Below are positions 3 through 46,200 of a stretch of DNA of 64,000 nucleotides, piece after piece. Position 1 is the stretch's first letter. The number at the start of each line of letters is the position of its first letter. Made by a program: the position numbers and the translations under genes. This stretch comes from Anisus vortex. Lineage: Eukaryota; Mollusca; Gastropoda; Planorbidae. The DNA is taken from assembly GCA_949126835.1 (NCBI GenBank), contig OX421507.1, positions 9,638,121 to 9,702,120 on the forward strand, written 5' to 3'. The notes beneath the pieces are model-generated. The model had not been told where the DNA came from, made no database searches, and was given only the letters and a program-made list of their open reading frames with translations.

Positions 3-1383
3 AGTATTTTTGACTCGAACAAGAGTCTGAAGTCATCGAAAGATGAAACAACACCCGAAAGTCATGGTCAAGGGAAGAATAAAATTGACACAGAGACCCT
101 GTGCAGTTTTCAACCGTTCATTAGTGAAGGTTGTGTGGCCTTACAAAAGGAAGGACCACTGAAGTCCGTAAGAATATTACGAGACACAGGAGCATCATTA
201 ACACTGCTGCTTAAAGATGTATTACCATTGAATGTGAATACATTGACAGGACAGACTGTCCTATTGAGAGGTTTTGAATGGAAAGAAGAAATACCTCTAC
301 ATAGGATATACCTCTCATCTGACTTGGTGACAGGATATGTGACAGTTGGAGTAATATCAAAACTTCCTGTTGAGGGCATATCTGTTATCCTAGCAAATGA
401 TTTGGCGAAAGGGAGGGTGAGACCTGAACTGATTGTGAAGGAAAATCCAGACCCTAGTCCTATTGTGGAGACAGGAAAAGAAAAAGAACTTTATCCTGTA
501 GGTGATGTCATAAAGGGTATGACACCACAGAAAAAGAAAGAAGAAACTATCTCACAAGAAAAGAAAGAAGAAATTCTCCCACGAGAGAAGAAAGAGGAAG
601 AAGAAGTGGAATTTGATACTACTATTTTCTCCATGATTGAAGATTGTCCGAAAGGAAATGATCAATCAAAGAAGTCATCACCAAATGAATTGATTGCTGA
701 ACAGAAAGTAGACCCAGAGTTGCTACAGCTGCATGAGAAAGCTGTCGACGAGAAAGAAAATCCTACTACTGATGTCTATGAACAGATAGACCACAGCATA
801 AACAATCAACAATGCAAACCTGCAGTTGCCGGTACAGATGAAGATTTGAGGAGCATCACTGAAGAAACGAGTGCGGAGAGCTGGACCGAAACTACCAAAA
901 GCTATGGGTTACCACAATCCATACCGACAGATCGAAGGACCAACTTCGCCCCGGAACTCTTCAATCCAGTCCTAAAGAACTTATGCCTGGAGCAGGAGAT
1001 GTCAACTGAATCCCATCCGGAAAGTCGAGGAGCCTATGGACCAATCTTTGGACCCACTGTCCGAGGACCACTCAAACTACTTCCAGAGGAATGGCAGACC
1101 GAATTGGATCTCCTTGGGCTGAGCAAGTACCTAGATAAGTACATAAAATTTTTATCTGACATAATTGTGTTTGTTAGAAAAAAAATTGTACACTGCTCAC
1201 ATGCAGATGCCATTGTTGTGTGATGAAAGAAAGGCAAAAATATTATATCATTTGAAAATGATAAAGCCTTACCTTCTGAAAACAATTGGAATAAGCTTGA
1301 TGTTGTTAACATTGTTACTCTTATTTGTAAAATTTATGCCTGGAGTTCAGGATGAATTGAATGACAAATTCACTGATAGTTAG
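3..1383 (+). pseudogene. Ty3/gypsy gag-pol remnant, internally deleted
   Basis: An open frame runs from the window edge to a stop at 1221-1223. Counting residues from the Met at 135, a retropepsin core is visible: RDTGA at 16-20 with the active-site DTG, and LANDLAKG at 86-93, the usual (L)GNDLAGG motif of this family. A Lys/Glu-rich stretch follows (about 130-160). From about residue 255 the protein reads as the second half of a DDE integrase: IPTDRRTNF (second catalytic Asp at 266) and STESHPESRGA. The catalytic Glu expected near residue 302 is a Gly. Reverse transcriptase, RNase H and the front half of integrase are missing. Past the stop, another frame (1204-1290) gives RKAKILYHLKMIKPY, the usual integrase C-terminal tail, so there is also a frameshift. 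Family knowledge: retroelement polyprotein. It cannot be functional as it stands. Confidence 0.85.
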
Positions 1384-3594
1384 TTACCAAACTTACTATT
1401 TTAAAACTAAATCCCTTACTTGTGAAGAAAAAGGACTGAGTAAAAGTATTGTTAGAGTAGATATCATTATACTGTGATATTTCTAAACAAACTTGTTAGG
1501 TTGAGCATTAAAAATAATTGCTATAAGAGAAAAAGATCAGTTTTATCAGCAGAATTGGTTTCTAAATCAGAGGACATTATAAATGTGGACTGATTATAAG
1601 ATATGTTTGAGAATCTCTGGAGATGATAATTGAAACATTTGGCAGAGAGGATAATTTGATTGATAAAGATGTAAATGATTTTAAGAAAAGAGAATTTTCT
1701 ATCACTAAAGTATTGAGAAATGTTTTATGATTGTACTATGAATTTATTTTATCATGTACTGTTGTTGAAATAATTGCACTGAGTCAAGATGCAAATTTCT
1801 TCTATGTGAATTTATTCATTTGTTCTATTATCATTGAATGTATGATAATGAAGGGTAAAAATAGTTGCTGCAAGACAGAACTATGACTAACAAGAATTCC
1901 AAGAATTGTATTATATATGATTTTTCACTTTTAGGATACTGTTACATGAAAAGCAGACCAGAAGTGAAACTAATGTAAAATAAAACTTATCCTTGTTTTG
2001 TATAAATTTAGGATATGTGCCACTGACTTGACACTGTAAACCAGAATGGTTGAGAAGTTCATGGTTGAGAATTTATAATGTTGACATACCAAGGTTCAAC
2101 AAATGTATTATTAATTAAGGATTTCATGTCAAGATTGTAAAACTAATCTATTTTTTTCTGTATTAGTTAAAATAGATTGAATGAATTGTATTGACAAGCA
2201 AAAGACTGGGTAGACCTGAACACTGTGGAAGTAACAGGAACCTAGAACCTATGAATAAAACCTTTATGGAAAATGGAAAAGAGCAATGTACACCACTGAA
2301 AAGATTGGAAATGGAATGTTTTACCACAACAGTCAAACCAGCAGTTGTTTTGTACATAAATTGTTACATTGATTTCTCTCTGAAAAAAATTAATAGTAGC
2401 CTATGCTTAACTCTTTTCTACTTCAATAATATTGTATTTGAAATGTCTTTAATGTAATCTAAAGAAAATAAGTACTTACTGTGTAGTACTAAGATTGTAT
2501 GAAGATAATATAACTTGTTTTAATTGATAGTTAATTAAGTAAATTAACCAAATTTGTTTAAGTAAATCCATGATTGTCTGAATGTTTCAATTTAAACTGC
2601 TACGATGTGAACTCTTTTAAAAAAGAAAATAATGACGTCGAAAGGTCAGGGTAAAATGAAAGATTGAAATATTTTTAATGAAATTGTCTATAAACTATTT
2701 TAATTCTGGAACAGACTATGTTTAATGTTCTTAAAATAACATAAATGAATTTAATATTGAGATAATAAGTTGTTAAAGAATGCTCATTTAATACGATAAC
2801 TATTTAATCGCGTAGCAATCTTTTTACCTAGGCTGTGATGAGGTAAAAATTTGCATAGCGATGTCAATATTGTTAGAATCAATAGGGAATGAGAGAGTGA
2901 TCGCAAGGAAGAGGGAGAGAAAGAAAAAAGAATACTGACCTAGAAATCTTTTGTTTCGACACAGACAGTGTTGTCTAAAGCCTACAGGCTTGAAAAAAAA
3001 TACTGTCTACACGAGCAATAAAATTTTTGTTGTAAAGTGAAATTAGGTCAGGGCTAGTATTTTTTTTGTTTTGTAATTGAGTTAGGCCTAGCATGTGTTC
3101 TATCAGAACGTTTGGTTTTTTCTCCTTATGAAAAAAAAAATAAGTCGTGTCTGAATAGACATTAAGTGATTTTTTCTTTTGTTGTTTGATTACAAATGTA
3201 AAAGCTAAGTTTATAATTAAATGAACGAGAGAGTTTTTATTAACGTGGAATGATAATGGAATGGAAATTATTAACTTGTATTATATTATATCTATTAAGA
3301 ATGATTATGTATTTTTCTTGTATACAAGATTTAGATAAACAATTTAATTGTCCATTGTTTTGAATTAAAAATTGAATGATTGAATGACTGTAGTTAAGCC
3401 ATTTGATAAGATGAACTTAGATTGCATATATTATATGTTATTGTTATCAGTTCGATTGAATTATTGGGATAGCCAATTGAATGGTATTGTTTTCCCCGGA
3501 ATATATTCTTTTATAATTATTCCTTAAAATTAACATTTTTTTTTGTATTGTAAAATGTAAAAGAAATAATTATAAAATTTTTTAAGGGCGGTCG
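1384..3594. other. Non-coding AT-rich stretch between gag-pol remnant and LTR
   Basis: No convincing coding frame. Small open frames near 2191-2457 lack any recognisable motif. The stretch ends with a short purine-rich run (AAGGGCGG, 3584-3591) just before the probable LTR, which could be the polypurine tract. It is probably the 3' non-coding part of the same retroelement. Confidence 0.45.
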
Positions 3595-4071
3595 TGTTAC
3601 GAATCTCGGTCATAAATGAATGACGTAGTAAGGCATTGACCTCTTAACAAGTGCGTATCAGAGTCCAAAGCGACCAAGGTTTGACCTTTATGCCCTGAGG
3701 GCAGTTTAAATAAAATAATTCGTTCAAATCCCGTGGAAATTGAAGGATAATTCTGGATCGTAGTAATTATAGAGAAAGAGGTTAAAATGCGTATTAAGAC
3801 CCTGTAGAATCTTCGATGATAGTTTTCTTTGTTAAGTCCCGACCTCCTTAAAGTTAGTTCAGTTCGGAAGTTTGTAGAGTGAAGTCGCTATATTCATTTG
3901 TATATTGTATGCCATTGTATTGAAACTTATGTTGCCATCAGTTGATGAAGTTTATTGATCGTTTATATTGAGTCTACAATTTAAATAAAATTGTTTATTC
4001 AACAACTGGAGTTGTGTGATCTATCATTGTTGAGAAAGGTGTTGAAGATAATTATCACGAATATAACTACA
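3595..4071 (+). repeat. Probable long terminal repeat (Ty3/gypsy)
   Basis: The 477-bp segment starts with TGTTACGAATCT and ends with CGAATATAACTACA, so it has TG...CA ends. It contains an AATAAA-type signal (near 3985) and a purine-rich run directly upstream. It follows a gag-pol remnant in the same orientation, so it is probably the 3' LTR. The second LTR is outside the window, so identity could not be confirmed by comparison. Confidence 0.6.
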
Positions 4072-8994: not shown

Positions 8995-9207
8995 TAATGT
9001 CTGGTCAATAATAACTATTGATTACTTATTGAAATATTGATTGGTATAAAGATACCACTGGTGTATATTGTGCTCGACATATTATTTATTGAAATATTGA
9101 TTGGTATGAAGATATAATTTGTGTATATCTTGCTTAGCATATTACTTATTGAAAATATTGATTGGTATAAAAATACCACTGGTGGATATCTTGCTCAGCT
9201 TATTAAT
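8995..9207 (+). repeat. Satellite array, ~63-bp unit, left part
   Basis: Just over three units carry TATTGAAATATTGATTGGTA, then AAGATACCACTGGTG and TTGCTCAGCATATTA. The array stops exactly at the left end of the DNA transposon and resumes in the same orientation beyond its right end (18561). Confidence 0.8.
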
Positions 9208-9244
9208 GGGCTTTATTCACACGTACTTCCGCGTCACGTGTTGT
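9208..9244 (+). repeat. Left terminal inverted repeat
   Basis: About 20 of the first 23 bases match the right end, followed by a 12-bp perfect match (GTCACGTGTTGT). It lies 38 bp before the transposase start codon, so the end probably overlaps the transposase promoter. Confidence 0.8.
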
Positions 9245-9281
9245 GCGAACGGAAGTCGCTGCATAACTCATTGTTTACAAC

Positions 9282-12200
9282 ATGGTAAAGTACTGCTCAG
9301 CTGTTGGGTGTTCAAATTACCAAGGGAAATCTACATGTAAAGGAACGAAAATAAGTTTTCATCGGTTTCCATTGAAAGATAAAGAACTGCTCAAGACATG
9401 GTATGTCAAAATAAGACGCAACAATTTTGTGGCAAAAGAATGGGACCTATTATGCTCCGAGCACTTTGAGGAAGGAGAATTCGACTTTCAACTTTTCACG
9501 GGTAAGGACACTATGACTATTACTATGATTCAATATCAGACAATAATCAATAAGGCTAAGGGCAGGGAATTTGTCAGAGGCCCTCGCTAGGCATGCATAC
9601 ATCTTTTATGTATCGAATAGTTAGATGTGAACAGTTGATAAGCCTATTAATTTAATAAAAAAAATAATATTGGCCTAGATCTAGATTACTTTTATTAAAT
9701 GAATAAATGGTAGGCCTACTAATTTGTCAATTCTTAGGCCTATTTATAATTTATAAGCTTTAACTTTTGCACTGAGCATGCTAATTAAATAGCTATGAGA
9801 AATGCTCATTATTACCTTAAAGGGTTTACATAATAAATGTACATATTCCGTGGATAGGAAAATGATTTATTTTTATATAGGCCTACATAATATGCATAAT
9901 ATAAATCTCCCAAAATAATAGGCCTACACTACTTCATATAATGCCATTAGCCTAATTATTAACCTAATATTTAATATATATAATAGCCATAGCTGACATA
10001 ACTAATGGCTATGCCCTATGATAATTCATTCAGTCAGATTTGTACATGTATCAGGCTTAGGCTATGCCTATATATATATTATATAAAATATAATGTATTA
10101 ATATTAAATTTATACACACTCTCAAAATACCTTATATTAATTTTTTAATTACGGTATAGTAATAATTTAATCTTAGGCTACCAATGCTTAGATATTAAAC
10201 CTGACCTCTTGTTTTTTATTCAATGTTTAAGTATATAATATTATACTTCAAATATCAAACTATATATTAATTATATTAACTTTATTTTTATTTAAATAAT
10301 GCATCAAAAATCTATATCAATCTGTATTCAGCATCTTTTAATACAAATTGATTAATTATGTTTATTAATAGTAAATACAAAATTTCAGGTAGGCGTCAGC
10401 TAAAAAAAGGAGCAGTACCCACAATCTTTTCTCACACACCAGTTACCAGTAAGCGCAAAAGAACATCTTATGAATTTGGGTAAGTGTTTCATTCAATTTA
10501 TACATTAAATATTAATATGCATGATATTTTATTATCTCATCTTATAATTTTAATAAACAATGACATACATGGTTTTATGCTAGTTATTTATATATACATG
10601 TATATAAATGTTCAAATGATGTTAAATCAGTAGTTTTCTTGTTTTGTTAATACAACCCATTGCATGTTCCAATTCCGATGCTCTGTATAAAGCAATGTGT
10701 AATTCAGTCCCGATAATTAGAGCATGTTTGCATTGATATACTCATGATCCCCCATCTGGCTTGCTTTTGACATGAACACATTATGTATAAACTTCCTGTG
10801 TGGAATAGTAATTATTTATAATATATAGGGAATATACTTTTAAATTTTTATTATAAGTTTTTATTTTTGTAAAGAGTCAAATGTGTTTATATAAAACTAT
10901 ATAATTTTATTTCAATGTGTGTTGATTTCATAATTTAAAAATGCAGTTTTACAATTAATTGTCAAGTGTTTATGTTATTAGCTATTAAATTAATGTGATT
11001 ATTGGATTCACTTTAGTAAATATAGTGTCAGTTCCACTACCACCAGCCATCATTCAACATATTCTAATTTCCATTGCTGACAACTATTTCAAGCAATAAT
11101 ATTCCTTATCATCCATCTCATAAAACACTAATAATTATGACACTACCAAAGGATGATTTTTAATATTAAACAAAGAACCATCATCATCATCTTTATAATT
11201 AAATTTATGTTTATTAACTGACAAGGATCATATCAATTATTCTCTTTAGACTTAATGATTCAAATAAAGAAAATGAGACCCCTGTAGAACTTCATGAGAA
11301 GAAGGATGTGGGCTGCCAAACGGAAGAAACAGACTTATCAAAACTATTGGAAGTACTTAAAGAAAAGGATGAATCAATACGTCAATTAACAATTCAAAAA
11401 ATAAAGTTGGAATTTTCATTTTCTTCAATTTCGGGAAAAGGAGACAATATTTTTCATTCCATTACAGGATATTCCATTAAATATTTTTCTGTTATATTTA
11501 ATTTTTTCAAACTTGATGAAGCTCTCAAATCCAATAATAGTACCCCTAAAGCTTTGTGTCCAATTGATCAATTTTTGCTAACTATTGTGAGACTTCGGCA
11601 TGCTCTTAGTGAAAATTTTTTATCAGTTTTATTTCAAATTAGTCAGTCAACAGTTTCTAGAACATTTAACAATTGTTTAGAAATTTTGTATCAAAAAAGC
11701 ATAAATGTAGACATATGGCCTCACAAACATCAAGTGAAAGCTTTTATGCCACCCACATTTTTTCAACATTTCCCTTCATGCAGGGTGATAATAGATTGCA
11801 CGGAATTTTTCATTCATCAACCATCTAATCCAACAGAACAACAAAGTAGTTTTAGTTATTATAAAAACCACAATACTGTAAAATCATTAATTGGAATTGC
11901 GCCAAGCGGAGCTATAACATTTATTTCTGATCTTTACAATGGCGCTATATCTGATAAAGAATTAACTTTGAGGAGTAAAATTATTGATAAGTTAGATCCT
12001 GGTGATTGTATTTTGGCTGATAGAGGTTTTACAAGTTTAACTGAGATTTTAGAAGCCAAAGGTTGTACTCTTTTCACTCCAAATTTTTTGAAAGATAAAG
12101 TTCAATTTCCTTTAAGTGAAAGATGTGAAAATAAAAATATTTCTTCACATAGATGTCATATAGAAAGAGCCATTAGTAGGATAAAAAATTTTCAAATTCT

Positions 12201-12309
12201 AAATTGTGAAATTTCTTACAATTTACTCCCAATCATTAATGAGATTCATTATGTATGTGCTTTTCTTTGCAACTTTTCTGATAAACCACTCATAAATGTT
12301 TTAAAATAA
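9282..12309 (+). CDS. THAP domain DDE transposase (3 exons)
   Basis: Exons 9282-9501, 10389-10479 and 11250-12309 join to 1371 nt, giving 456 aa. Donors are GGTAAGG and GGTAAGTG; acceptors are TTTCAG and CTTTAG; phases fit at both joins. The THAP zinc finger occupies residues 1-90: C5, C10, W40, C58-x2-H61 and the closing AVPTIF box, which is restored only by splicing exon 1 to exon 2. Residues ~125-150 look like a short coiled coil. A helix-turn-helix (FLSVLFQISQSTVSRTF) lies near 227-243. The IS5/DDE_4-type catalytic core has IIDCTE (D286), ILADRG (D361) and HIERAISRIKNF (E409), so all three acidic residues are present. Expected role: binds the element's ends through THAP and performs cut-and-paste transposition in the nucleus. 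No stop or frameshift was seen. Introns are 887 and 770 bp. Confidence 0.88.
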
Positions 12310-13870
12310 TTTTCAATTACTATTTTTTTATTAAAATGTTTCAATAATGACATTTTATTCATTACAATGTTTAAGGCAGGAAAGTGCATTTTTCTGCTTT
12401 GGACCGCATATGAAATGTTATATAACAAGAATGGCCACACATTCTGAACATTTATTTGCATTATCAATGCAACCAATTTAAAAAAAATGGTAAGAAGCTC
12501 TTTGGGGGCCACGCTACAAGACTTGGTGGACCTTTTTGTGGCCCTCTTGCCGCTTGTTGCACAACCCTGTATTAAGGTATAATAGTTGAAATGGATGACA
12601 CTAAAAACATACAAGGCTAAATAAAAAAAATTAAATATTTTATTTATTATTATTTTTAACATATTATTATTACCTAATGTATATAGTCATGATTGGCAGG
12701 TATTTCTTGGTCTTTCTATTTACCTCTTGCTTTGGAAGCTACACATAAATGCTTGTCTCCAGAGTTTTGTTGCAGGATTTGTTATGTTTGTATTTTCCAA
12801 CTCCATTGTCTCATTGTTTTATTTTATTCTATTGTAAATTAAATTATTATTTGCCACATGAATATATTTTTCATGGTCACAGGTCAGCATATCTCTAGTA
12901 TATTGTTTAAGCAGCTGTTGTTGAAAACTTTTAATTTAAAGTAGGTGGTTTTTGTCATTCTCACATTATCTGCATACAATTTTGATTATTATTTCTTTAT
13001 TATTGCAATGTCTACATTTTTCTTCTATCTTTATAAATTCAATGTTTTCCTTCCACATATGCTTATAAATTATTGTAATGGTGGTTTAGGTCGTCCGGTC
13101 CCTTACTTAATTATATAGTTAGTGAGTTAGTGTTAAAAGTTAATAAATATCTAATGCTATGTTCCTGGAAAACATGTATTGTTTCCTTGTAAATAGTTTT
13201 CCACATAATTTAAAACAATGATTGAGATCAAATTTTATTATATTTATTTTTGTATCATTACATTTATTTGTTATTAGTTCACAATTTTAACATTCACCTG
13301 TATAATTGTACATTTCATAATGTCTGACTTATATTTTTAATAACATATGTTAAATTTATTGCATTGACAAATGTAGACGTGTCATATTAACACATATTGC
13401 AATAACAAATTTTTCATTTCTATTGAAACAAATTTTATATTTATTCAAGACACATTAAATATGAACTTTATGTACAATAACATGATGTCAACCGTATTAT
13501 AAAGAAGGCCATCAAATTTTAATGTGTCATCAACAAATGGATGTACATGTTATTAATTATGTTTTTTACAAATATAAATAAGTATTGCATTTGGATGTAA
13601 TAAATTATGTGATTAATTGTTTTATATCATGGTTATTAATTGTCTTAAAAATAATATGTCAGTAATGTTATTGAATTCAGTAATATTCATTGAAATAAAT
13701 ATAATATAAGAATGAATATTTTGTTATTGAATACTGTACTATTTATTTACCAAAAAATAGACATGGAATCAATTTTTTATATTTATTATTCTAAATTATT
13801 TTTAATAATAAATTGTAATAATAATAAATTCAGATATTAGTGGGTTTTAATCATTGTGCAGGGTAGAAGT
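12310..13870. other. Non-coding interior of the transposon (left half)
   Basis: Very AT-rich spacer after the transposase stop, with an ATTAAA signal near 12330. No open frame with recognisable content was found on either strand; a minus-strand frame at 12249-12662 overlaps the transposase end and looks like chance. Confidence 0.6.
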
Positions 13871-13874
13871 TTTT

Positions 13875-14010
13875 GCTCCAGGTCTGCAGTATGTCGATGA
13901 GTCTACCCATCTCTGAAAAGTAACTGAAATTTAATGGGGTAAAGTAAATGCGGCTGTGCATAGTGCTTGCTACAAAATTATCCAATATTATGCCATAGCC
14001 GGTTAAAGTG
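13875..14010 (+). repeat. Old SINE fragment inside the transposon
   Basis: GAGTCTACCCATCTCTG, GGGGTAAAGTAAATGCGGC and GTGCATAGTGCTTGCTAC match, with divergence, the body of the tRNA-derived SINE found elsewhere in this window (for example at 50437-50690), in the sense orientation. It lacks the tRNA-like head. Confidence 0.6.
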
Positions 14011-15777
14011 TTGCATGCTGCCTAAACCTCCCTATATATAATTTGTCAATGGATACTTTACTTTAATATTATAATAGCAATAATTATATAAATGTATATA
14101 TAATAGAAAGAATTCAATTAATTCAATTCAAGACAATTATATCTCATAAAATAATGATTTTATTATAATAAAATGTCAAACAAATTTAGTGATATTTATC
14201 ACATATTACATTGAAATGTTGAGTTTTGCATATGACAAAATATCATTAAGAAAGAAATAATGGAGAAGTATACAAATAAAGTTAATACATTCTACAATGA
14301 GTCAAAACTAAAGTAGCAATGATGAAGTGAAAATATCACTTACATAATTTAAAAAACAAACCCAAATGGCCACTGATTAAAGAATCTATGTGTCTTTTCA
14401 ATTACTAATTTCAATTTGACACTTAATACTATGTTGATTACTAATAAAAAAAAGTGTCTATAGTAATATAAGTAATATATTAATTATTGTAATGATATGA
14501 TAACAACAAAATCAAAAATCATAAATATATTAATAAGTTTTAACATACAGTACTTGTTGAAAATAATATGAAATACTGTATAAGAAATATAATTATGATA
14601 AAGAAATGTATGGAAATATTTTATAAGATCATTATTTGTATATTTTCATGCAATATAATTTAATCATGAATGATAATTTTTTACTTACCAAACATTTCAT
14701 AGAATACTATTTGGGGACTAAATTTATAATATGTCCCCAAGATCCAGGGGTAGCATGTTTTACTATGAATAACAAGTGTAATCTAGACAAGGCTTAGTGT
14801 TAGAATCATTGTGAATTCTTTTTTTGTTCCCATGACGTGAAGTTATCTTTATCTCTAAACATCTGTGATGTTTAAAGATGTTTGATCTGTCCTATGATCA
14901 GTCTTACAGTAGTCTCCAGTTAGTTTATGGCAGTGGATGAAAATGATTACATACATTATAAATAGTTATAATGATAAGATGAATAATATTTACATCATTT
15001 AAAAACTAAAACATAGTCAACTAATAGCAAGAATCCACAATTAAAAACCATGATTAAATAGATGGTTAAATTTGTATGTAATGTATAAAATGTACAAATT
15101 TAATTCTATCTCATGAAAACATAAATTCATACAATATTTATTTCATGGACTACAGGAGCAAATGTGTTGAGAGTGGGAGTATAATATTCTCACTTTTACA
15201 AATTATGATAAAAATATTCTTAACTAATATCCTTCATGCACTTACCAATTATTGATTTAAAAAAATGGAATGTATTAAAAAAAATTATATATATATTGTT
15301 TTTATATTGAACTGAAAAAAAAAAAACATACCTCAAATAATATAGAACAAAAAATGAACTCCAAATGTAAACACCAATGTAACCTAAAAAAAAAAAAGAA
15401 ATACATGATTAATTTAAGATACTAGCATAATATAGGTATTATGAAGTCAAATAACTGCAAAAAGATTTAATAATATTATTGAACTAATGCAGTAAAATAT
15501 AATTTCAATTACATATATACCAAAATAAAATTATTATAATAGATATGTATTGAATGAAGAAAATTATTATAATGTAAAAAAAACAATGCAAATCTACAAT
15601 GCAATCAATTATTTACAAATGTGTAAAAGTAAAACAATAGTGCTATCACTTAATATAAACAAAAGATATTAATTATAAACTCTCTCTATTTAATATTCAG
15701 TGTATTTAGTGTATTCTGTGTATTCAAATATTATGATATAAAGATAATTATATTCAATTTGTATGAATAGATCATAA
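14011..15777. other. Non-coding interior of the transposon (right half)
   Basis: AT-rich spacer between the two convergent genes. No gene, tandem array or structured element stands out. Confidence 0.5.
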
Positions 15778-18494
15778 TTAATTGATATTTTTTGATGACA
15801 ACATAGGTAAATAATGTTGAAAGTAAAACTTGGACAAATTTGATAGATTTTTTTCACAAAATTGAGCTTCAGCATGAATAACTTCTAAATGAAGTGGCTT
15901 TCTAAAATAGTAAAAGAGAGCCAATAAACATTTGTTTATATTACTGCAAAACATCTGAAACTGAATTTGCGTGTAATAACTGTGATTATGTTTCAGTTTC
16001 CATGTCACTTCAGCAGTATTAAACATTAAACAAAAATCTTTTCTCTCTCTTGAAAGACATTCTAAAGTTTTTTTGGAGGGATTAAATAAACATTTAATCT
16101 CCACTAACATGCTGTCCATATCATTATAAAGAAAGCCATCAGGTGATGCACCAAGAAATGGGTATAATGGATGCACCACAAGACCAGTATTTCTAAATAT
16201 ATGATTTGGAAATTTATTTCTAATAATATTTTTTACCATTTCCTCACGGTCCTTACCTAAACAGATTGGAAGAATGGAACTTAAATTGTTGGAAGGTTTA
16301 AATAAAGTTAAGGCCAGATCATCTATATCTTTTTTACTATGTAAAACTATATGTACATTAGATGCTGTTAATCTTTTTTGTCTTTCAATTCTCCAGCAGT
16401 CATTATCTTGAGACATGGTGTTCTTTTCTAACTCAACAAGTTCTACAATATTTTTTCTAACATTTTCATGATAAAATAAAATTTCATTTAGTTTAAGCCG
16501 TTCAGGAATATCATTCCCAAAACCTGAGGTAATAAATGCAGGTAAGGGTAATGTATAATCATAAAAAATGATATCAGTACAAATTTTCGGACCAATATTT
16601 AAAGCTGAAAAAATTGGACATGACTGATTTAATTGAGATAGTGTTGAGTAGTCCACACTTGTGTCAATGATTTTTTTATGCGCTGATCTCTTACCAAATA
16701 TTGAATTGGTTAGTTTTGGTGAAACAGGTTTGGTAGTAGGTTGATGCCATTTTTGCAGGTTCTCAGTCGGCGAAGCATACAATTCTTTTCTGCTGTAGTC
16801 TTCTACTGCAGATAGGAGACCAAACAGATGTTTGCAACATGCAGGTTTAATACCGCCAGGACATTGGCATTCTCCTTCAAGTACCTGTTGAAAAAATAAA
16901 TGAAATAATAATTAGGGTATTTTCATTTAATAAATAATAAATTATCACATTATAAAACATTAATATCATACACAGTTTATACATAGTACATCATTAAAAA
17001 CATAACTATGAGGCCAAAGCCTCAAGTCCACTTGTGTGCACATCAAATATAATGCCCAGCAATATTATTATACTTATCCAAAACTACTTTCTAATTCTGG
17101 TATACAAGAGATCTAGTTCTACTAAGCTGCACCATTACAAACAATGAAAAAAAAAAAATTCTCCAATATGAATGTAACACATAACCATCATACAACAAGT
17201 GAGTGTACCTACTCTAGTTCAACGAACCAACATTTAATGAAATATATGCACTAATTAATCATTAGTACTATCTATAACCTTTACAACTCATATATATATA
17301 CATTTTTATTTTTTAATAGGCCTATATATTTATATTATCATACAGACATTTAAAAGAATGTATTTATTTTTAATTAAATTAATCTTATGCACTCCAGCAT
17401 ATATAGTAGGCATATTTGCTATATTTATATCTTAGGCCTATCAAATACCTATTTATCTGCTACATGACATAATATATGTTATATTTTTATTTTTTACTAA
17501 TACATTTTATCAATAATATCATATAGGTCAATAACTTTCTAATTATAACTTAGTATAGGGAAGATGTTAGATAACTATATAATTCTCATATTAGATATAT
17601 TATATATACATATGCCTAATAACCTAATAGTTACTATAAGTTATAGGCCTATATGCATTTTACCTTATAAGCCTTATAACTCATAAATTCAATACGACAA
17701 TAGCATGGTCATAGTCTAAACTGTATGACTGTAGGCTATAATTTTCTAATTATGAGTAGCCTAGACCTATAGTATAATTATAGGCATAGGGAATATGTTA
17801 TATGAATATGACTATATAATTATCACAAATACTACTACAACATAGGCTACTACTTACTACAATTTATAGACATTATACTCATTATACCTTATAAATTAAT
17901 GACTTAAAAACGATAAATTCAATGCGCCAATAGCATATGACAGCATATCCATAGACAGTCATAGTCTAATCATTTCATACATTGTAGGCCTATATTTATA
18001 TTTTTTTGCCTCCTATAGCCGATCCTATCCAATAGGCTATAGACTATAGTTAGTCAATTATAGTTATAGAGTTATAGGCATTATGCTCCTATAAATTAAA
18101 TAAATTTGACTAAGTATAAAAAAACAATATAAAAGAAACTAAAATAGAGTCTATATCAATATGAAGCATTTGTAGTTTTTAAACTATTAGTAGTAAAAAT
18201 TACACCTACTGATCCTGATGGTTCTATTAAGACGGTAACAGTGTAAGCTGATCTTTTTTTCATTTCAGCTTTCACTCGAGCTTGGATAGTATACCGTCCA
18301 ATGTCATCAACTTTAAACATAATGTCAGTAATAAAATGCTCCTTAAACAAGGATTGACCTTTAATAATAATGTGTCGATAGTCGTTGCAACAAGAATGTG
18401 CATCATTCAATACATCACAATATTGTAAAATATGTGTAAAATTAAAATGTTTCAACAACATAGGTGTAGATAAAATAGAATCGAAAGACGCCAT
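15778..18494 (-). CDS. SWIM zinc finger plus YqaJ-type nuclease (2 exons)
   Basis: Exon 1 is 18494-18210 and exon 2 is 16884-15778, joining in phase 0 to a 463-aa protein. The donor is GTAGGT and the acceptor TTTTTCAACAG; the intron is 1325 bp. The Met at 18494 was chosen because the frame's earlier Met (18590) lies outside the transposon's right end. Residues 101-114 form a SWIM finger (C101-x-C103, C112-x-H114), split from its leading strand by the intron. Residues ~255-430 match the YqaJ/lambda-exonuclease fold: RLTASNVHIVL, GKDREEM (Glu near 309), GASPDGF (D344), VEIK (E357, K359) and YTQIQFQ. The metal-binding D...ExK set is complete. YqaJ proteins are phage-type 5'-3' exonuclease/recombinases; a role in processing transposon or donor DNA is inference. 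It faces the transposase gene tail to tail. Confidence 0.85.
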
Positions 18495-18512
18495 TATTGA
18501 TGTGATATCAGT

Positions 18513-18560
18513 ACAACACGTGACCAAAATGCTATCGCTAAGGACTTGTGAATAATGCCC
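18513..18560 (-). repeat. Right terminal inverted repeat
   Basis: Mirrors the left end: GCCC at 18557-18560 is the terminus, and ACAACACGTGAC at 18513-18524 is the inner perfect block. It carries 11 more bases than the left copy between the two matching parts. Confidence 0.8.
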
Positions 18561-18905
18561 ATTGTTGGAATATTGTTTGGAGAATATCACTGATGCAACT
18601 CAATAGGTATAAAATATGTGCCTATTGAAATAGTAATTGGTACAGAGACTAGGACTTTTGCAATTCAATAGGTATAAAATATGTGCCTATTGAAATATAA
18701 ATTGGTACAGAGACTAGGACTTATGCAACTCAATAGGTATAAAATATGTGCCTATTGAAATAGTGATTGATATAAAGAATATGACTTATGCAACTCAATG
18801 GGTATAAAATGTGTGCCTATTGAAATAGTAATTTGTACAGTAATTTGTAAATTTCTTGCTCAGCATATTTCTTGTTGAGATTTTGAGTGGTAGACAAAGT
18901 GTTGA
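18561..18905 (+). repeat. Satellite array, ~61-63-bp unit, right part
   Basis: The first, partial unit (TTGGAATATTGTTTGGAGAA) continues the unit interrupted at 9207. About four more copies follow with CAATAGGTATAAAATATGTG and CCTATTGAAATAGTAATTGG, ending with CTTGCTCAGCATATTTC, which matches the left array. Confidence 0.8.
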
Positions 18906-22591: not shown

Positions 22592-22592
<1 letters not shown>

Positions 22593-23210
22593 TAGTCTTT
22601 ATCGCTCCCCGTGGAGCATAAGGCAGCAACAAAGTTCCGCCAGGCCTCCCTATCCTGGGCGAGCCATCGGATTTCGTGCCATGTTTTATTTGTGGCCTTT
22701 GCTTCCTCGTCCATTGTCCTCCTCCACGTTCCCATTGGCCTTCCCCTTCGTCTTTTTCCTGGTGGTGTCCATTTCAATGCGCTGCTTGGGAGCCTCATTT
22801 TGTCCATGCGGAGGATGTGACCCAGCCATCTCCATCTTCTTTTCATTATTTCATCGATAATGAAGCTTATTCCAGTTCTTTGGTGGACTTCGATGTTGGA
22901 GATGTGGTCCTCCCAGCCGATCCTTAGTATACGTCGGAGACATCTACCTTCAAACCCTCTAAGGCGGCCTTCAATTTTGGTATTGGTCTTCCAGGTCTCT
23001 GCAGCATAGAGAAGGACTGAGCGTACATTTGACTTGTATAGTTTCAGTTTTGTTCTTAGTTGCAGAGAGGATGACTTCCATATTTTCCCCAGTTTGTTGA
23101 AGGCCTGAGCTGCCATAGCTAGTCTGGTGGAGATTTCCATGTCTATGCTTCCATTAGCAGAGATGTAGCTGCCAAGGTATTTGAAGTTTTCAATCTCTTC
23201 CACCCAAATA
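22592..23210 (-). mobile_element. 5'-truncated LINE copy with open ORF2 carboxyl end
   Basis: From about 23207 downward the minus strand is open to a stop at 22592. It reads VEEIENFKYLGSYISANGS, LYKSNVRSVLLYAAETWKT, RGFEGRCLRRILRIGWEDHI, MKRRWRWLGHILRM, GKRRRGRPMGTWRRTMDEEA and AQDREAWRNFVAALCSTG. This is the standard post-RT carboxyl region of RTE/CR1-like LINEs. The palm domain is absent through 5' truncation; the frame's first ~40 residues are flanking sequence. The 3' end runs into (TA)n. The lack of stops suggests a relatively recent insertion. Confidence 0.85.
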
Positions 23211-23439
23211 TATATATTTTTTATAGAAAAATCATGATTTTTAAACTTATTTATACATGTATATATATTTTCAAAATATGATATTTGTACACAAAAAAAG
23301 TTATATGCATACAAAGGATGCACGGGGGCTGTTTGGTTGATATCTTCTCTCTTCTTACTTCTGGTGCTGGATCCTCTTCCTGATGATACTTATAGAAATT
23401 GTGTTTGGTTTTCAATGATAGTTTTTATCTTTCTCCGTA

Positions 23440-40200: not shown

Positions 40201-43200
40201 TAGAATTAATTAGTTTTTTTGTGTAGGCTAAGCCAGGAGAGAGGCACTATAAATTATAATATTTGGGGGTAGGCTAAAGCTTAAAATTAGAATTGAAACA
40301 CACTTCGGTATTTTGGCTTAGTTTAGAATCGTTGTTTGGCTTTTTAAAAACTGTGTTTTGAAATATACAGTTTTTGTCACATTCGTGATACTAAAAGTTC
40401 CTATTGACAGATTGCTCGCCCCCGGGACACCACCAACGCACGGTTACCTTGTCAAATCACAACATAAACCAATAAAATCAACAGCAAATAATTTTGGGGC
40501 TAAAATCCTACCCAACAACAATATGTTCCGTTTAGGCTTAGCGCATACATTTTAAGTTCACAATGTTTTTATAAATCTAAATTAAAGTCTAAAGCAAAAC
40601 CATAATTAAAAACAACAACAAAAAGTCTAAACAGAAATATGTGTATAGATATTTTTTGATGTAGAACTCACCTATGACAGATATTTAATTTGATTGGTTT
40701 GGTCATGACATTGGCCTGTGTAAGCCATAAGTAGCCCATTGCCTAATAATTGTTCCTTGCGAAACCTTTGCCTACTGTTATTCAATAAAGTTATTCTCGT
40801 CTGTTTCTATAAACCCCTAAAAACACAATCTACTTTTAGAATCCGACAATTGGTTCAAACTTCGGAGCTATTGACAAAATGGAATTGTGTAAATTTGGAA
40901 AAAAAGTACGTGTTTTATTTATTTATTTTTTTTGCGTAAAATCGAATTATTTTCCATCAGAACTTCTAACACGATTATTTACAAGATAAAGAAAGATAAA
41001 AAGTAGGGAAAGATAAAAAGTAGGGAAAGATAGAAAGTAGGGAAAGATAGAAAGTAGGGAAAGATAGAAAGTAGGGAAAGATAGAAAGTAGGGAAAGATA
41101 GAAAGTAGGGAAAGATAGAAAGTAGGGAAAGATAGAAAGTAGGGAAAGATAGAAAGTATGGAAAGATAGAAAGTAGGGAAAGATAGAAAGTAGGGAAAGA
41201 TAGAAAGTAGGGAAAGATAGAAAGTAGGGAAAGATAGAAAGTAGGGAAAGATAGAAAGTAGGCAAAGATAGAAAGTAGGGAAAGATAGAAAGTAGGGAAA
41301 GATAGAACGTAGGGAAAGATAGAAAGTAGGCAAAGATAGAAAGTAGGCAAAGATAGAAAGTAGGGAAAGATAGAAAGTAGGGAAAGATAGAAAGTAGGGA
41401 AAGATAGAAAGTAGGGAAATATAGAAAGTAGGGAAATATAGAAAGTAGGGAAAGATAGAAAGTAGGGAAAGATAGAAAGTATGGAAAGATAGAAAGTAGG
41501 GAAAGATAGAAAGTAGGGAAAGATAGAAAGTAGGGAAAGATAGAAAGTAGGGAAAGATAGAAAGTATGGAAAGATAGAAAGTATGGAAAGATAGAAAGTA
41601 GGGAAAGATAGAAAGTAGGGAAAGATAGAAAGTATGGAAAGATAGAAAGTATGGAAAGATAAAAAGTAGGGAAAGATAGAAAGTATGGAAAGATAGAAAG
41701 TAGGGAAAGATAGAAAGTAGGGAAATATAGAAAGTAGGGAAAGATAGAAAGTAGGCAAAGATAGAAAGTAGGGAAAGATAGAAAGTATGGAAAGATAGAA
41801 AGTATGGAAAGATAGAAAGTAGGGAAAGATAGAAAGTAGGGAAAGATAGAAAGTAGGGAAAGATAGAAAGTATGGAAAGATAGAAAGTAGGGAAAGATAG
41901 AAAGTAGGGAAAGATAGAAAGTAGGCAAAGATAGAAAGTAGGGAAAGATAGAAAGTATGGAAAGATAGAAAGTATGGAAAGATAGAAAGTAGGGAAAGAT
42001 AGAAAGTAGGGAAAGATAGAAAGTAGGGAAAGATAGAAAGTAGGGAAAGATAGAAAGTAGGGAAAGATAGAAAGTAGGGAAAGATAGAAAGTAGGGAAAG
42101 ATAGAAAGTAGGGAGAGATAGAAAGTAGGGAAAGATAGAAAGTAGGGTAAGATAGAAAGTAGGGAAAGATAGAAAATAGGGTGAAATGAAACAATGGGAG
42201 ATAAAAAGAATATAAAAGAAATTGAAGCCGAGATCATTAACCAAGACCAGGAAAACTTAAATCCAATGAATAATGTTTAATTTAGTATTGTTGATTTGAA
42301 ACAGACCGATTTACATGTTTTCATATTCGCATTTTCTATCATTTAATATAACAGAAACGTTGTTTTTTTTTACATAACCTAGACGTGACACAGAAGTTGA
42401 TATATATATATATAATAAACGCCTACCACAATTTTCCTTTTAAAACGAAATAAGTTAACAAGGAACATACATTTCGAAGATATAAGTAATAACGCCCTGA
42501 AAATTGTTCGACTAACTCACAAACTAATGTCAAGTAAACTTTAAAAAGTTGTAAAACTAGAGCGTTTAAAAAATGAACACTTTGTACACTATACAGGCCG
42601 AAATGAAACGTAAAAAAACTTTAAACACTGATGAAACTTTAAAAACCAAAAGTTGAAAGAACAAAAATTATAAGAACTCCTGGTTAATTGTGAACATATA
42701 CTCTGTGTGAATAGTGTGTATACTCTGTGTGTGAATAGTGTGTATACTCAGTGGGGGCTTAATTTGCCTTTCTGTTAGAATGTTGCCCTAGATGGTCAGG
42801 GAGTTAAGCTGATCATATCAGATAAGATAAAGGCATTATCCCTTATGACAATCTCTAGCAATACCAACACACCGACATGCGTTTAGACTTCAAGCTCATA
42901 AATGTATTTAACGATTTAGTTTTAAATAGAAAGATGGACTCATTGACTAATTTATTAGTGTAAAATACATGGATAAAATGTTTCATATTTTTAGAATTTC
43001 ACTTCATATTTGCAAAATTTTAAGTTCACATTTCAGAAATATTTGAGGTCATATTTAAGAAAGGAGAAAAAATTTGAGAAATATTAGACTAGATCTAGAT
43101 TTCATATTTGAGAAATATTAGATTTCATATGAGAAATATTGGATTTCATTTTTTAGAAATATTACATTTCATATGAGAAATATGGGATTTCATTTTTTAG

Positions 43201-46200
43201 AAATATTAGATTTCATAATTTAGAAATATCTGTGTACATATTTGAGAAATATTTCAAACAGTTTATAAAAGCGTATTTAAAGAAAAATACTGTCTTAGAC
43301 CTATATAGATTTCAGAATGTGACAGAAGTGTGTTTCAATTGTAACCTTCAATGATATGTTAGGCCTATACATTAGTATACATTAACTTTATCTATGAAAG
43401 CAATGAAAGCGAAAATGTCTAGGTCATATTGACTTTGTCCAAGTTTTAATGACTTAGTGAGGATAAAGTTTATCCATTTAAATGAATGTAGCCCACACAC
43501 TCAAACAGAATTTTAAAAAAACAACAATGTACTGGAATGATCATTGATTGTGTTTTTTTTTTATTACTTGTTTTAAAAAGTCTGCACACGCAGAGAGGTA
43601 TGCGTGTATGAGTGTCTGTGCGTATGTGTGTGTAGTTGTGCCAGTGTGTGACTATGTGACTATCTTGTCAAAGTCACTGATAACTGTGTGAATAAAAAAA
43701 ATTTTTTGTCTAGTTAGGTCTTTCAATCTCACTTCTCTCTCTCTCTCTTTCTCTCTTTCTCTCTTTTTTTCTTTCTCACTATTTTTCTCAAATAAATAGA
43801 AAGAGAAAACGAGATTAAAAAAGAGAAGAGAGACAGGAAAAGAAAGAAAATTGAGAAAACGGGCGAGAAAGAATACGAGAAAAAGAGAGTAAAAGAGAGA
43901 AGGAGAAAGAGAGAGCACGTGAGAGAGAAAGAAAAAAGAATAGTGAGAGAGTGAGAAAGCAAAAAAAATAATTATTAAAATATCAAGAAGGAGGTAAAAG
44001 ACCGCATCAGCAATACTTGATTTTATTTCTGCATTTATAAAAGGGGGCTAATCCTTGTGTCTTAAAGTGGGTTTTAATTTTTCGGGTTATCTTTCTTTGG
44101 TTAAAAAATAACGCTATTTATAACCTACATTATAACAATTAAATATAAAGACTAAAACAAAATTGTAACACATCCTATTTTATTTATTTTAACATATTGA
44201 AATTGTAATAATATTGATCAGAAATGTCAAAGAAGAACAGCTGTTAGAGAAATGATATATCCTATTCACATATTTTTTTAACATTTTGAATGTAAATGTG
44301 TAATTAAATATAAAGAGGGATACAGCAGTCAACAGTGTCCAGCCTGTCATAGTCATAGTTAATAAACTTTATAGATCCTACGTTATTGTTTTGGTCTAGT
44401 TAGGCTACTTGTTATGGTGATTTATGCTGCCGGATATACAGAGAACACAACACTGCCTTTTCTCTGTAAACCTAGACTAGATGTGGTCCCTGTCGTTCTA
44501 GTGCCACGTGTGTAGCTATTTACCTATGTCACCATATTAGACTTGATCACCACAATAGCCTATCTCACCACATTAGACTTGGTCACCACAATAGCCCATG
44601 TCACCATATTATACTAGGTCACAGAATAGCATATGTCACCAAATTAGACATGGTCACACAATAGCCTATGTCACCATATTAGACTTGATCACCACAATAG
44701 CCTATCTCACCACATTAGACTTGGTCACCACAATAGCCCATGTCACCATATTATACTAGGTCACAGAATAGCCTATGTAACCAAATTAGACTTGGTCACC
44801 ACAATAGCCTATGTCACCATACAAGTTACAAAATATGCCTCTGTAATAGACCCTGTCACTCTAATAGCCCATGCCACTCGAATCACCCATGTCACCATAA
44901 TAAGCTATATCACCATTGTAGTATATGTCACTCTAATAGTTCCTGTCACTAAGCTAGCACATCTCAATTAAATAGCCCCTATCACAATTGTAGCATCTGT
45001 CATTCTAATTGACAGACTGTCACTATTTGAGCTCCTGTCACTTTAATAGGCTCTCTCTCTCTCTGTCATACCTTCACCCCACCCTGTCCCCTTCCCACAA
45101 TCCCGCAAACAGCTTTAACTGACCAGTTTGACTTTGAAATGAAAACGTCCGTCAAATTTATCAACCATGATAAACCATCCTTCTGATTGGTTGACAAAGA
45201 TTGCGCGTGAACATTTGACCCGACTCTTCTTCATGTCGTCTGCTCGGCTATCAGTTCATCCCCCCCCCCTTTTTTTTCCAATCCACCCTCACACCCCCTC
45301 TAAGTCTATTCTTGACCTTTACCGATTTTCATCACTCGTATATTTTCCCAGAACACGCCGGAAACCACACACATGCACACACACATACACACATACACAC
45401 CACAAACATAACACACTACACACACGCAGCATCTGGTATAAACCGGTTAATTTAATCCAAGAACATTGTGTCCTACATCAAGGCGATGACGTCAATAGAA
45501 GAACTCTCTGTGTACATTAGAGAGTTTAAAAAAAAAAAACTTTAAATGGTTGACTGCATCCACTGGACCGTGAGATTCTCTCGCCCTACAATAACATTAC
45601 ATGCTTAGGTTTCTTTATTTTTTCTTTCTACTTGCAAAATAGAGGGTGAAGGGAGAGAAAGAGGGAAGGGTTGATTGTTGGTGCAGGAAGATGCGACATG
45701 CAATGTTTGTGTCAACAGAAGTAAAGAAAGTATCCCGTCGTACCATATTGATCCATGGGGGGGGGGGGGGGGCGGTGAAGAAGCGTTTACCAGTTTCTGT
45801 GGCCACGGCATACTAGGGGATCGTGTCGCCCAATGCAAAATGCCCAGCCGCTTTTACTTTACCCCAACTAAAGTCAAGTACCCGTCAGAGCTGGGTAGAC
45901 TCAGGGACACCCTCAGACCCGAGAAACAAATTCTAGCCTTCACCAGGATTCGAACCCAATACCTTCGGTGCGCCAGCGGAACGTGCTGTCGCTCATACCA
46001 CCGTGCCTCCCTGTGCCAACAAAGGAGAGTCCATTTTTACATGCTACACAATAATAATATGCGGTTAGAAATTATTTTTTTTAAAATAAATTATATAGTA
46101 CAGTTAATGGTCTGCGATTTATCATCTTATATATATATATATCACCGAATAAACGTTTTTTTCTTATATAGCACATGTACAGATATACACAAGAGTTTGA

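Follow-up and report, generated by a model that had tools for sequence, protein, structure and literature searches.

ISL2EU elements are DNA transposons of the PHIS superfamily. As set out in the passages on them in the PHIS paper (Han et al. 2015, PMC4482050), they duplicate an AT within the context A|AT|T, have terminal inverted repeats (TIRs) of 6 to 259 bp that start from GG, encode a transposase with THAP, helix-turn-helix (HTH) and DDE domains, and carry a second gene with a YqaJ domain; the role of their additional open reading frames is called unknown there. In passages of PMC7776569, the internal binding sites of the P element, 9 and 21 bp from its inverted ends, are likened to the 12/23 signals of V(D)J recombination. 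A nuclease is also encoded by the DDE transposons KolobokE and KolobokP; that of KolobokE is lambda-exonuclease-like, and that of KolobokP is a His-Me finger protein encoded on the complementary strand (passages of PMC9587614). Here we describe an element of the gastropod Anisus vortex, found in a 64,000-nucleotide stretch of contig OX421507.1 (hereafter the window), that is by its sequence a complete ISL2EU transposon of 9,353 bp. We consider it probable that this element moves by cut and paste into A|AT|T, likely by pairing a short-spaced left end with a long-spaced right end and perhaps with the aid of its predicted YqaJ nuclease.

A complete ISL2EU element with two convergent genes

The element starts with GGGCTTTATTCACACGTACTT and its inverted right end reads GGGCATTATTCACAAGTCCTT, with identity at 18 of 21 positions (Table 1). 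Over the first 20 positions 17 match; when pairs of window positions were drawn at random, a fraction of 7.5e-6 did as well. A degenerate TIR search allowing up to three mismatches returned two places in the window, which are the two element ends (0.02 expected); at that threshold no other TIR, and no further copy of the family, was found in the window, and profile matches outside the element were at chance level. The TIRs lie within the described length range, and their GGGC start includes the described GG. Both ends sit in the context A|AT|T, which, with the AT target site duplication, was also seen at the copies labeled C12, C1 and C18b, a nested insertion, a 4.5-kb element and the empty site in the flanking array (see below). 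Three flanks depart from this pattern and count against it: AATT, with one A too many, adjoins the right end of the C9 copy; ATT precedes the left end of one C18 copy, for which no right end was found; and at C3 the AT of the right flank has an A after it.

Three plus-strand exons join into a stop-free transposase of 456 amino acids, and two minus-strand exons, convergent to them, into a stop-free YqaJ protein of 463 amino acids. The 919 codons that make up both predicted proteins contain neither a stop nor a frameshift, and homologous proteins continue straight through the junctions of the three predicted introns. In the transposase, Pfam recovered THAP (E 2.6e-18), HTH_Tnp_4 (3.8e-14) and DDE_Tnp_4 (1.6e-41), all over the Pfam cut-offs, and besides these only a weak DDE_Tnp_1. 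The THAP residues C5, C10, C58 and H61 and the AVPTIF motif (82-87) are all there. Across 16 aligned proteins (the window's and 15 relatives), the catalytic residues D286 and D361 show no variation and E409 almost none. A structure model of exon 3 (predicted local distance difference test score [pLDDT], 90) gave a weak match to integrase and piggyBac catalytic folds (best E 5.5e-4).

The YqaJ domain of the second protein was found at E 4e-10 (40.6 bits; cut-off, 22). Among 17 aligned proteins (the window's and 16 relatives), E309, D344, K359 and Q401 are invariant and E357 nearly so, and the best solved-structure matches of the exon 2 model (mean pLDDT, 86) are LHK-Exo (E 3.7e-9) and lambda exonuclease (E 1.5e-8). 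SWIM is assigned here by alignment of its CxC...CxH motif; the Pfam SWIM profile scored worse than E 0.1 with the window protein and, among four YqaJ relatives, was below the cut-off in one and absent in three.

All the ISL2EU sequence features in the PMC4482050 passages that could be checked were found here, which supports the assignment. The original prediction, made from the window's letters, had proposed an ISL2EU-like element with matching inverted ends, an AT on each side and two convergent genes whose exons join without stops, and each of these points held. It had also listed a full set of key residues: those of THAP with AVPTIF, the D, D, E triad and those of YqaJ were confirmed, and so was the aligned SWIM motif, but the SWIM domain was not recovered by the Pfam check of the spliced proteins that had been proposed, which returned THAP, HTH_Tnp_4, DDE_Tnp_4 and YqaJ. 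The mean ISL2EU length is about 4.84 kb (passages of PMC4482050), compared with 9.35 kb here; a 3.47-kb spacer with passengers and long introns explain the length. The element is an ordinary but unusually complete ISL2EU, and its end structure deserves a test.

The best-scoring named protein relatives come from spiders and gastropods. Rfam gave no match at the gathering threshold. Among viral contigs, no relative of the transposase was found (14 stretches fit the pattern and none was confirmed), and there were 24 distant YqaJ loci. Prokaryote genome contigs gave a single match, a eukaryote-like contaminant.

Table 1. Coordinates of the element, its parts and its flanks, in window positions
Feature	Position	Strand	Basis
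ISL2EU transposon, 9,353 bp	9208..18560	+	ends, flanks, genes, genome copies
Left target site duplication AT, A before it	9206..9207	unstranded	flank reading
Right target site duplication AT, T after it	18561..18562	unstranded	flank reading
Left TIR, 21 bp	9208..9228	+	end comparison, degenerate TIR search
Right TIR, 21 bp	18540..18560	-	end comparison, degenerate TIR search
Left inner box TCACGTG, from nt 27, separated from GGGCWTTATTCACA by 12 nt	9234..9240	+	end comparison
Right inner box TCACGTG, from nt 38, separated from GGGCWTTATTCACA by 23 nt	18517..18523	-	end comparison
Transposase exon 1, most of THAP domain	9282..9501	+	exon joining, Pfam
Transposase exon 2, AVPTIF end of THAP	10389..10479	+	exon joining, alignment
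Transposase exon 3, HTH_Tnp_4 and DDE_Tnp_4	11250..12309	+	exon joining, Pfam, alignment, structure model
SWIM-YqaJ exon 1	18210..18494	-	exon joining, alignment
SWIM-YqaJ exon 2, CxC...CxH and lambda-exonuclease-like domain	15778..16884	-	exon joining, Pfam, alignment, structure model
Left TAGGC-rich tract, 15 sites, in transposase intron 1	9588..10178	unstranded	site count
Right TAGGC-rich tract, 16 sites, in YqaJ gene intron	17317..18079	unstranded	site count
Passenger, dispersed repeat of about 185 bp	12387..12574	unstranded	82-86% identity across genome, 11 of 63 genome search rows
AT site of nested ISL2EU-type element in C14 copy, empty in window copy	13208..13209	unstranded	copy comparison
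Probable decayed YqaJ fragment with stop	13394..13513	-	42% amino acid identity over 40 residues, tblastn E 3e-4
Passenger, second dispersed repeat	13841..14065	unstranded	part recurs at window 45840-45961
60-bp tandem array, left of insertion	9021..9205	unstranded	repeat detection
65-bp tandem array, right of insertion	18589..18840	unstranded	repeat detection

A young copy with interrupted siblings

We searched the window's own genome (863 Mb). Since these searches scored only the best candidates (40 of 3,111, 111 of 127 and 115 of 138), all copy counts are lower bounds, and further copies may exist. The near-identical copies that the original prediction had proposed to look for are there: at least three siblings, one full length (C9, with mismatches at 0.49% of aligned bases) and two split (C14, 0.27%; C12, 0.55%). 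A local tandem duplication inserts 53 bp into the YqaJ frame of the C9 copy, the C12 copy is split at two points, and the search did not recover the beginning of the transposase gene in C14. In protein searches of the genome, near-identical, uninterrupted matches to full-length YqaJ exon 2 made up 2 of 70 rows (window and C14) and those to transposase exon 3 made up 2 of 78 (window and C9), so the window copy is the only one, among those found, with both frames uninterrupted.

One of the interruptions, in the C12 sibling's transposase, is a 14.9-kb insertion (genome C12:14737939-14752878) with perfect 12-bp inverted ends, CCCCTTAAACAT, whose flanks have a 2-bp overlap, AC.

Empty sites, the other proposed check, were found in two ways. 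The element lies between two tandem arrays, and joining its flanks with a single AT restores a repeat unit, scoring 32 against the left array and 23 against the right; random joins to this left array, 1,000 in number, averaged 10 and never exceeded 19, and among shifts of -6 to +6 the join was best at the exact element cut. The C14 sibling holds a nested ISL2EU-type element of 10,444 bp between CACATAAT and ATTTAAAA, where the window has unoccupied sequence. This comparison indicates recent movement with an AT duplication, for which the transposase may have come from either element or from another. Taken together, the empty site in the arrays and the nested insertion argue that the group moved recently.

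At greater distances, comparison of transposase exon 3 with two relatives that share 75-80% protein identity gives, in each case, a ratio of nonsynonymous to synonymous substitution rates (dN/dS) of 0.11; closer copies give 0.37 for the transposase (C3) and 0.80 (C18) and 0.66 (C7) for YqaJ. Read from these sequences, this is the usual picture of long-term constraint followed by decay once inserted.

The window copy may be autonomous. It may instead be an ISL2EU element that is already dead, too young for its frames to have decayed but blocked by silencing, faulty splicing or some critical change. Several observations point that way and count against an active copy: all three siblings found are interrupted, residue 421 of the window's YqaJ differs from all three, and changes among siblings appear to be near the neutral expectation, with replacements not depleted. 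Replacement-to-silent counts are 6:2 (C9), 3:0 (C14) and 4:2 (C12) in YqaJ and 2:3 (C9), 1:0 (C14, over 332 of 1,371 bases) and 5:4 (C12) in the transposase. Set against this are the uninterrupted codons of both proteins and the presence of every catalytic and zinc-binding residue and splice signal sought, and we regard a dead element as possible but rather doubtful.

An inner box lies at unequal depths in the two ends

An identical 12-bp box, GTCACGTGTTGT, occurs at both ends, beginning at nt 26 on the left and at nt 37 on the right, 11 bp deeper. These 12 identical bp are shared by the two subterminal 40-bp stretches, a result reached by 12 of 20,000 random pairs. The spacings of 12 and 23 nt between the outer block and the TCACGTG core assume that the outer block is the 14-bp GGGCWTTATTCACA; the 11-bp difference is the same for any choice of block. 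Among copies picked by similarity, all seven left ends have TCACGTG from nt 27. Of 11 right ends, 10 have it from nt 38, the exception having TCACGTT. Four additional right ends gave the box at nt 38 in three cases and, in the fourth, 4 extra bases in the terminal repeat.

We then compared the ends region by region, setting aside the ends of C15 and C18b and of the copies that were near-identical. Mean pairwise identity among six divergent left ends was 1.00 in the box, 0.72 in the outer 14 bp, 0.84 in the spacer and 0.33 in the 30 bp inward; in twelve right ends, the corresponding values were 1.00, 0.97, 0.90 and 0.60. One of the six left ends and three of the twelve right ends had been found through a motif containing the box, which favors the box in this profile.

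A genome-wide search for GGGCNTTATTCACA followed by 5 to 35 bases and TCACGTG gave 288 matches, and the reversed control gave none. Among the 100 of these that were listed, the spacer was 23 nt in 65, 12 nt in 34 and 11 nt in one; spacers of 13 to 22 nt were absent from the whole genome. Inward-facing neighbors up to 20 kb apart formed 33 pairs among the listed matches, 31 of them 12/23, and 27 of the 33 enclose 4.2 to 4.9 kb.

Some results weigh against the pairing of unlike ends. One pair is 23/23 and another 11/23; of the 100 listed ends, 34 have no partner (31 of the 23 type and 3 of the 12 type). Three of the 31 unpaired 23-type ends were fetched and share an outer flank at all three loci, so they probably ride in another dispersed repeat. 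Because all ends come from one genome and share common descent, the 12/23 pairs are not independent events. At two further gene-pair loci, the ends were not found in the stretches fetched, and so the asymmetry could not be read there; the sole end candidate at these loci was judged spurious since one side fell within apparent YqaJ coding sequence.

CACGTG is an E-box, and the box might be an E-box-like promoter element of the two genes, its unequal depth reflecting two promoters. The transposase ATG follows it after 41 bp and the YqaJ ATG after 22 bp, and this nearness to both start codons makes a promoter role possible, again to the detriment of an end-pairing role. On the other side, in the single 4.5-kb element whose sequence was read no stop-to-stop frame reaches 100 codons and only a relic of the THAP exon is left, yet it keeps both boxes, at 12 and 23, which speaks for a role in movement; most of the pairs above are of about its length. 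The invariance of the box in divergent left ends whose outer 14 bp and inward sequence vary also argues against a promoter element, one of those six ends having been found by the box. We consider the promoter explanation somewhat unlikely.

A literature search, judged partly from titles and abstract openings and not extending to Repbase, found no account of the subterminal structure of ISL2EU elements, and no mention of an asymmetric inner box was found in the PMC4482050 passages on ISL2EU. We do not claim the end asymmetry as unpublished. The unequal spacing of the box is the interesting and testable part of this element.

Model for movement

In the model we favor, the predicted THAP-HTH-DDE transposase would likely move the element by cut and paste into A|AT|T. 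The THAP finger and HTH would bind the end and the inner box, the DDE domain would do the cutting, and a two-base stagger would yield the AT duplication. By reading both the outer and the inner blocks, the transposase could pair unlike ends, and such hetero-end pairing would enforce the correct synapse. The predicted YqaJ nuclease would perhaps assist movement; most speculatively, this lambda-exonuclease-like protein might resect the 5' strand where the donor is broken, whereupon repair would copy the element back in and its copy number would rise. That ISL2EU transposition at large might follow a 12/23-like rule, with ends one helical turn apart, and that this might also mobilize the 4.2- to 4.9-kb relatives, is a tentative proposal suggested by the end sequences.

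Spacer and TAGGC tracts

Besides its two dispersed-repeat passengers, the spacer holds a probable decayed YqaJ fragment with 70% DNA identity over 108 bp, for which a profile search gave only E 1.2.

The outer introns of the two genes each contain a TAGGC-rich tract, and these might be arrays of transposase (THAP) binding sites. The rest of the element has two TAGGC sites, and the tracts are the densest 700-bp stretches of the window. A U-shaped distribution recurs in the gene-less 4.5-kb element (32, 3 and 29 sites in the first 1.6 kb, the middle and the last 1.6 kb) and in a decayed 5.85-kb relative (26, 8 and 21). However, 1 of 10 arbitrary 4-kb genome stretches also had an equally dense tract, reaching 21 sites in 700 bp, and no ISL2EU end was found in the 5.2 kb inspected there; the unrelated 14.9-kb insertion is TAGGC-rich as well; and in the nested 10.4-kb element there is a dense tract at the left end and none at the right. 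These controls rule out the tracts as a mark specific to ISL2EU-type elements and make binding-site arrays quite unlikely. The tracts are genuine features that these elements share with other sequences, and we give them little weight. The region next in TAGGC density, at 45.9-47.1 kb of the window, was rejected as a decayed relative, having neither a TIR nor a domain match.

Other gene-pair loci and neighboring sequence

A transposase match within 8 kb of a YqaJ match was found at no fewer than 28 genome loci, and the two were convergent in 28 of 28; this count took in 47 of 78 transposase rows and 70 of 70 YqaJ rows, and 4 of the 28 loci belong to the window element's family. Open frames also occur in some of the other families, so this genome has candidates for activity besides the window copy. 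The original prediction had called an autonomous copy rare in a neighborhood it took to be decayed; the word has to be qualified in view of the many pair loci and these open frames.

Five copies of another ISL2EU-type pair (C1, C5, C6, C7 and C17), with a 540-bp gap and identical match scores, have a transposase match of 41% with a 397-amino-acid open frame and a YqaJ match with one stop; to judge by sequence, they are apparently recent. There is also a numerous ISL2EU-type family, mostly of 4.2 to 4.9 kb, with near-identical ends. The nested 10.4-kb element belongs to it, with 98-99% identity over shared parts and about 5.6 kb inserted.

Outside this genome, QNXQ01000076.1, filed as an Aquifex sp. 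metagenome-assembled genome, contains an HTH-DDE transposase (351-1358, plus strand) and a convergent YqaJ (2866-3805, minus strand, in two overlapping frames); it is very likely animal DNA contaminating a bacterial genome bin. The predicted Elysia chlorotica protein EGW08_018732 is listed with DDE_Tnp_4 and YqaJ in one chain, perhaps a gene-model fusion of neighboring genes.

Elsewhere in the window, a 265-codon open frame at 22592-23389 (minus strand) resembles, by eye, the decayed reverse transcriptase end of a long interspersed nuclear element. A 17-bp tandem array at 40991-42181 (70 copies, 96% matches) leaves three overlapping frames of 425 to 433 codons open on one strand.

Comparison with known systems and implications

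HTH_Tnp_4 and DDE_Tnp_4 are common to PIF/Harbinger, which would favor a PIF/Harbinger or other PHIS element over ISL2EU. Such an identity is highly improbable, and PIF/Harbinger was excluded, as the duplication is AT and not TWA, the partner gene is YqaJ and not Myb/SANT, and a THAP domain is present (compared with the passages of PMC4482050). The features shared with ISL2EU are the AT in A|AT|T, the GG ends, the THAP, HTH and DDE domains and the YqaJ gene (Han et al. 2015, PMC4482050, in the passages on ISL2EU).

A P element identity was also rejected, given an AT instead of an 8-bp duplication and a Pfam profile of THAP, HTH_Tnp_4, DDE_Tnp_4 and a weak DDE_Tnp_1. P elements are not known to carry a nuclease gene. 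The window element shares a THAP finger transposase with the P element and THAP9 and differs from the P element in that the latter has an 8-bp duplication, a GTP-binding transposase and a spacing difference of 12 rather than 11; V(D)J signals are likewise paired, with 12- or 23-bp spacing, but their blocks and enzyme differ (passages of PMC7776569). The ends of this element resemble P-element and V(D)J spacing, a likeness that holds only in related copies from one genome. KolobokE and KolobokP, as DDE transposons that also encode a nuclease, are like the window element in this respect; Kolobok is another superfamily, and the KolobokE nuclease lies downstream of the transposase domain rather than in a separate convergent gene (passages of PMC9587614).

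A young copy with both genes unbroken, together with its siblings, exact empty sites and a numerous partner family whose ends match, makes the role of YqaJ in transposition directly testable. If box spacing does control pairing, 12/23-type logic would extend to one more THAP transposase lineage, and hetero-end synapsis would also occur in a transposase lineage distinct from those of P elements and RAG.

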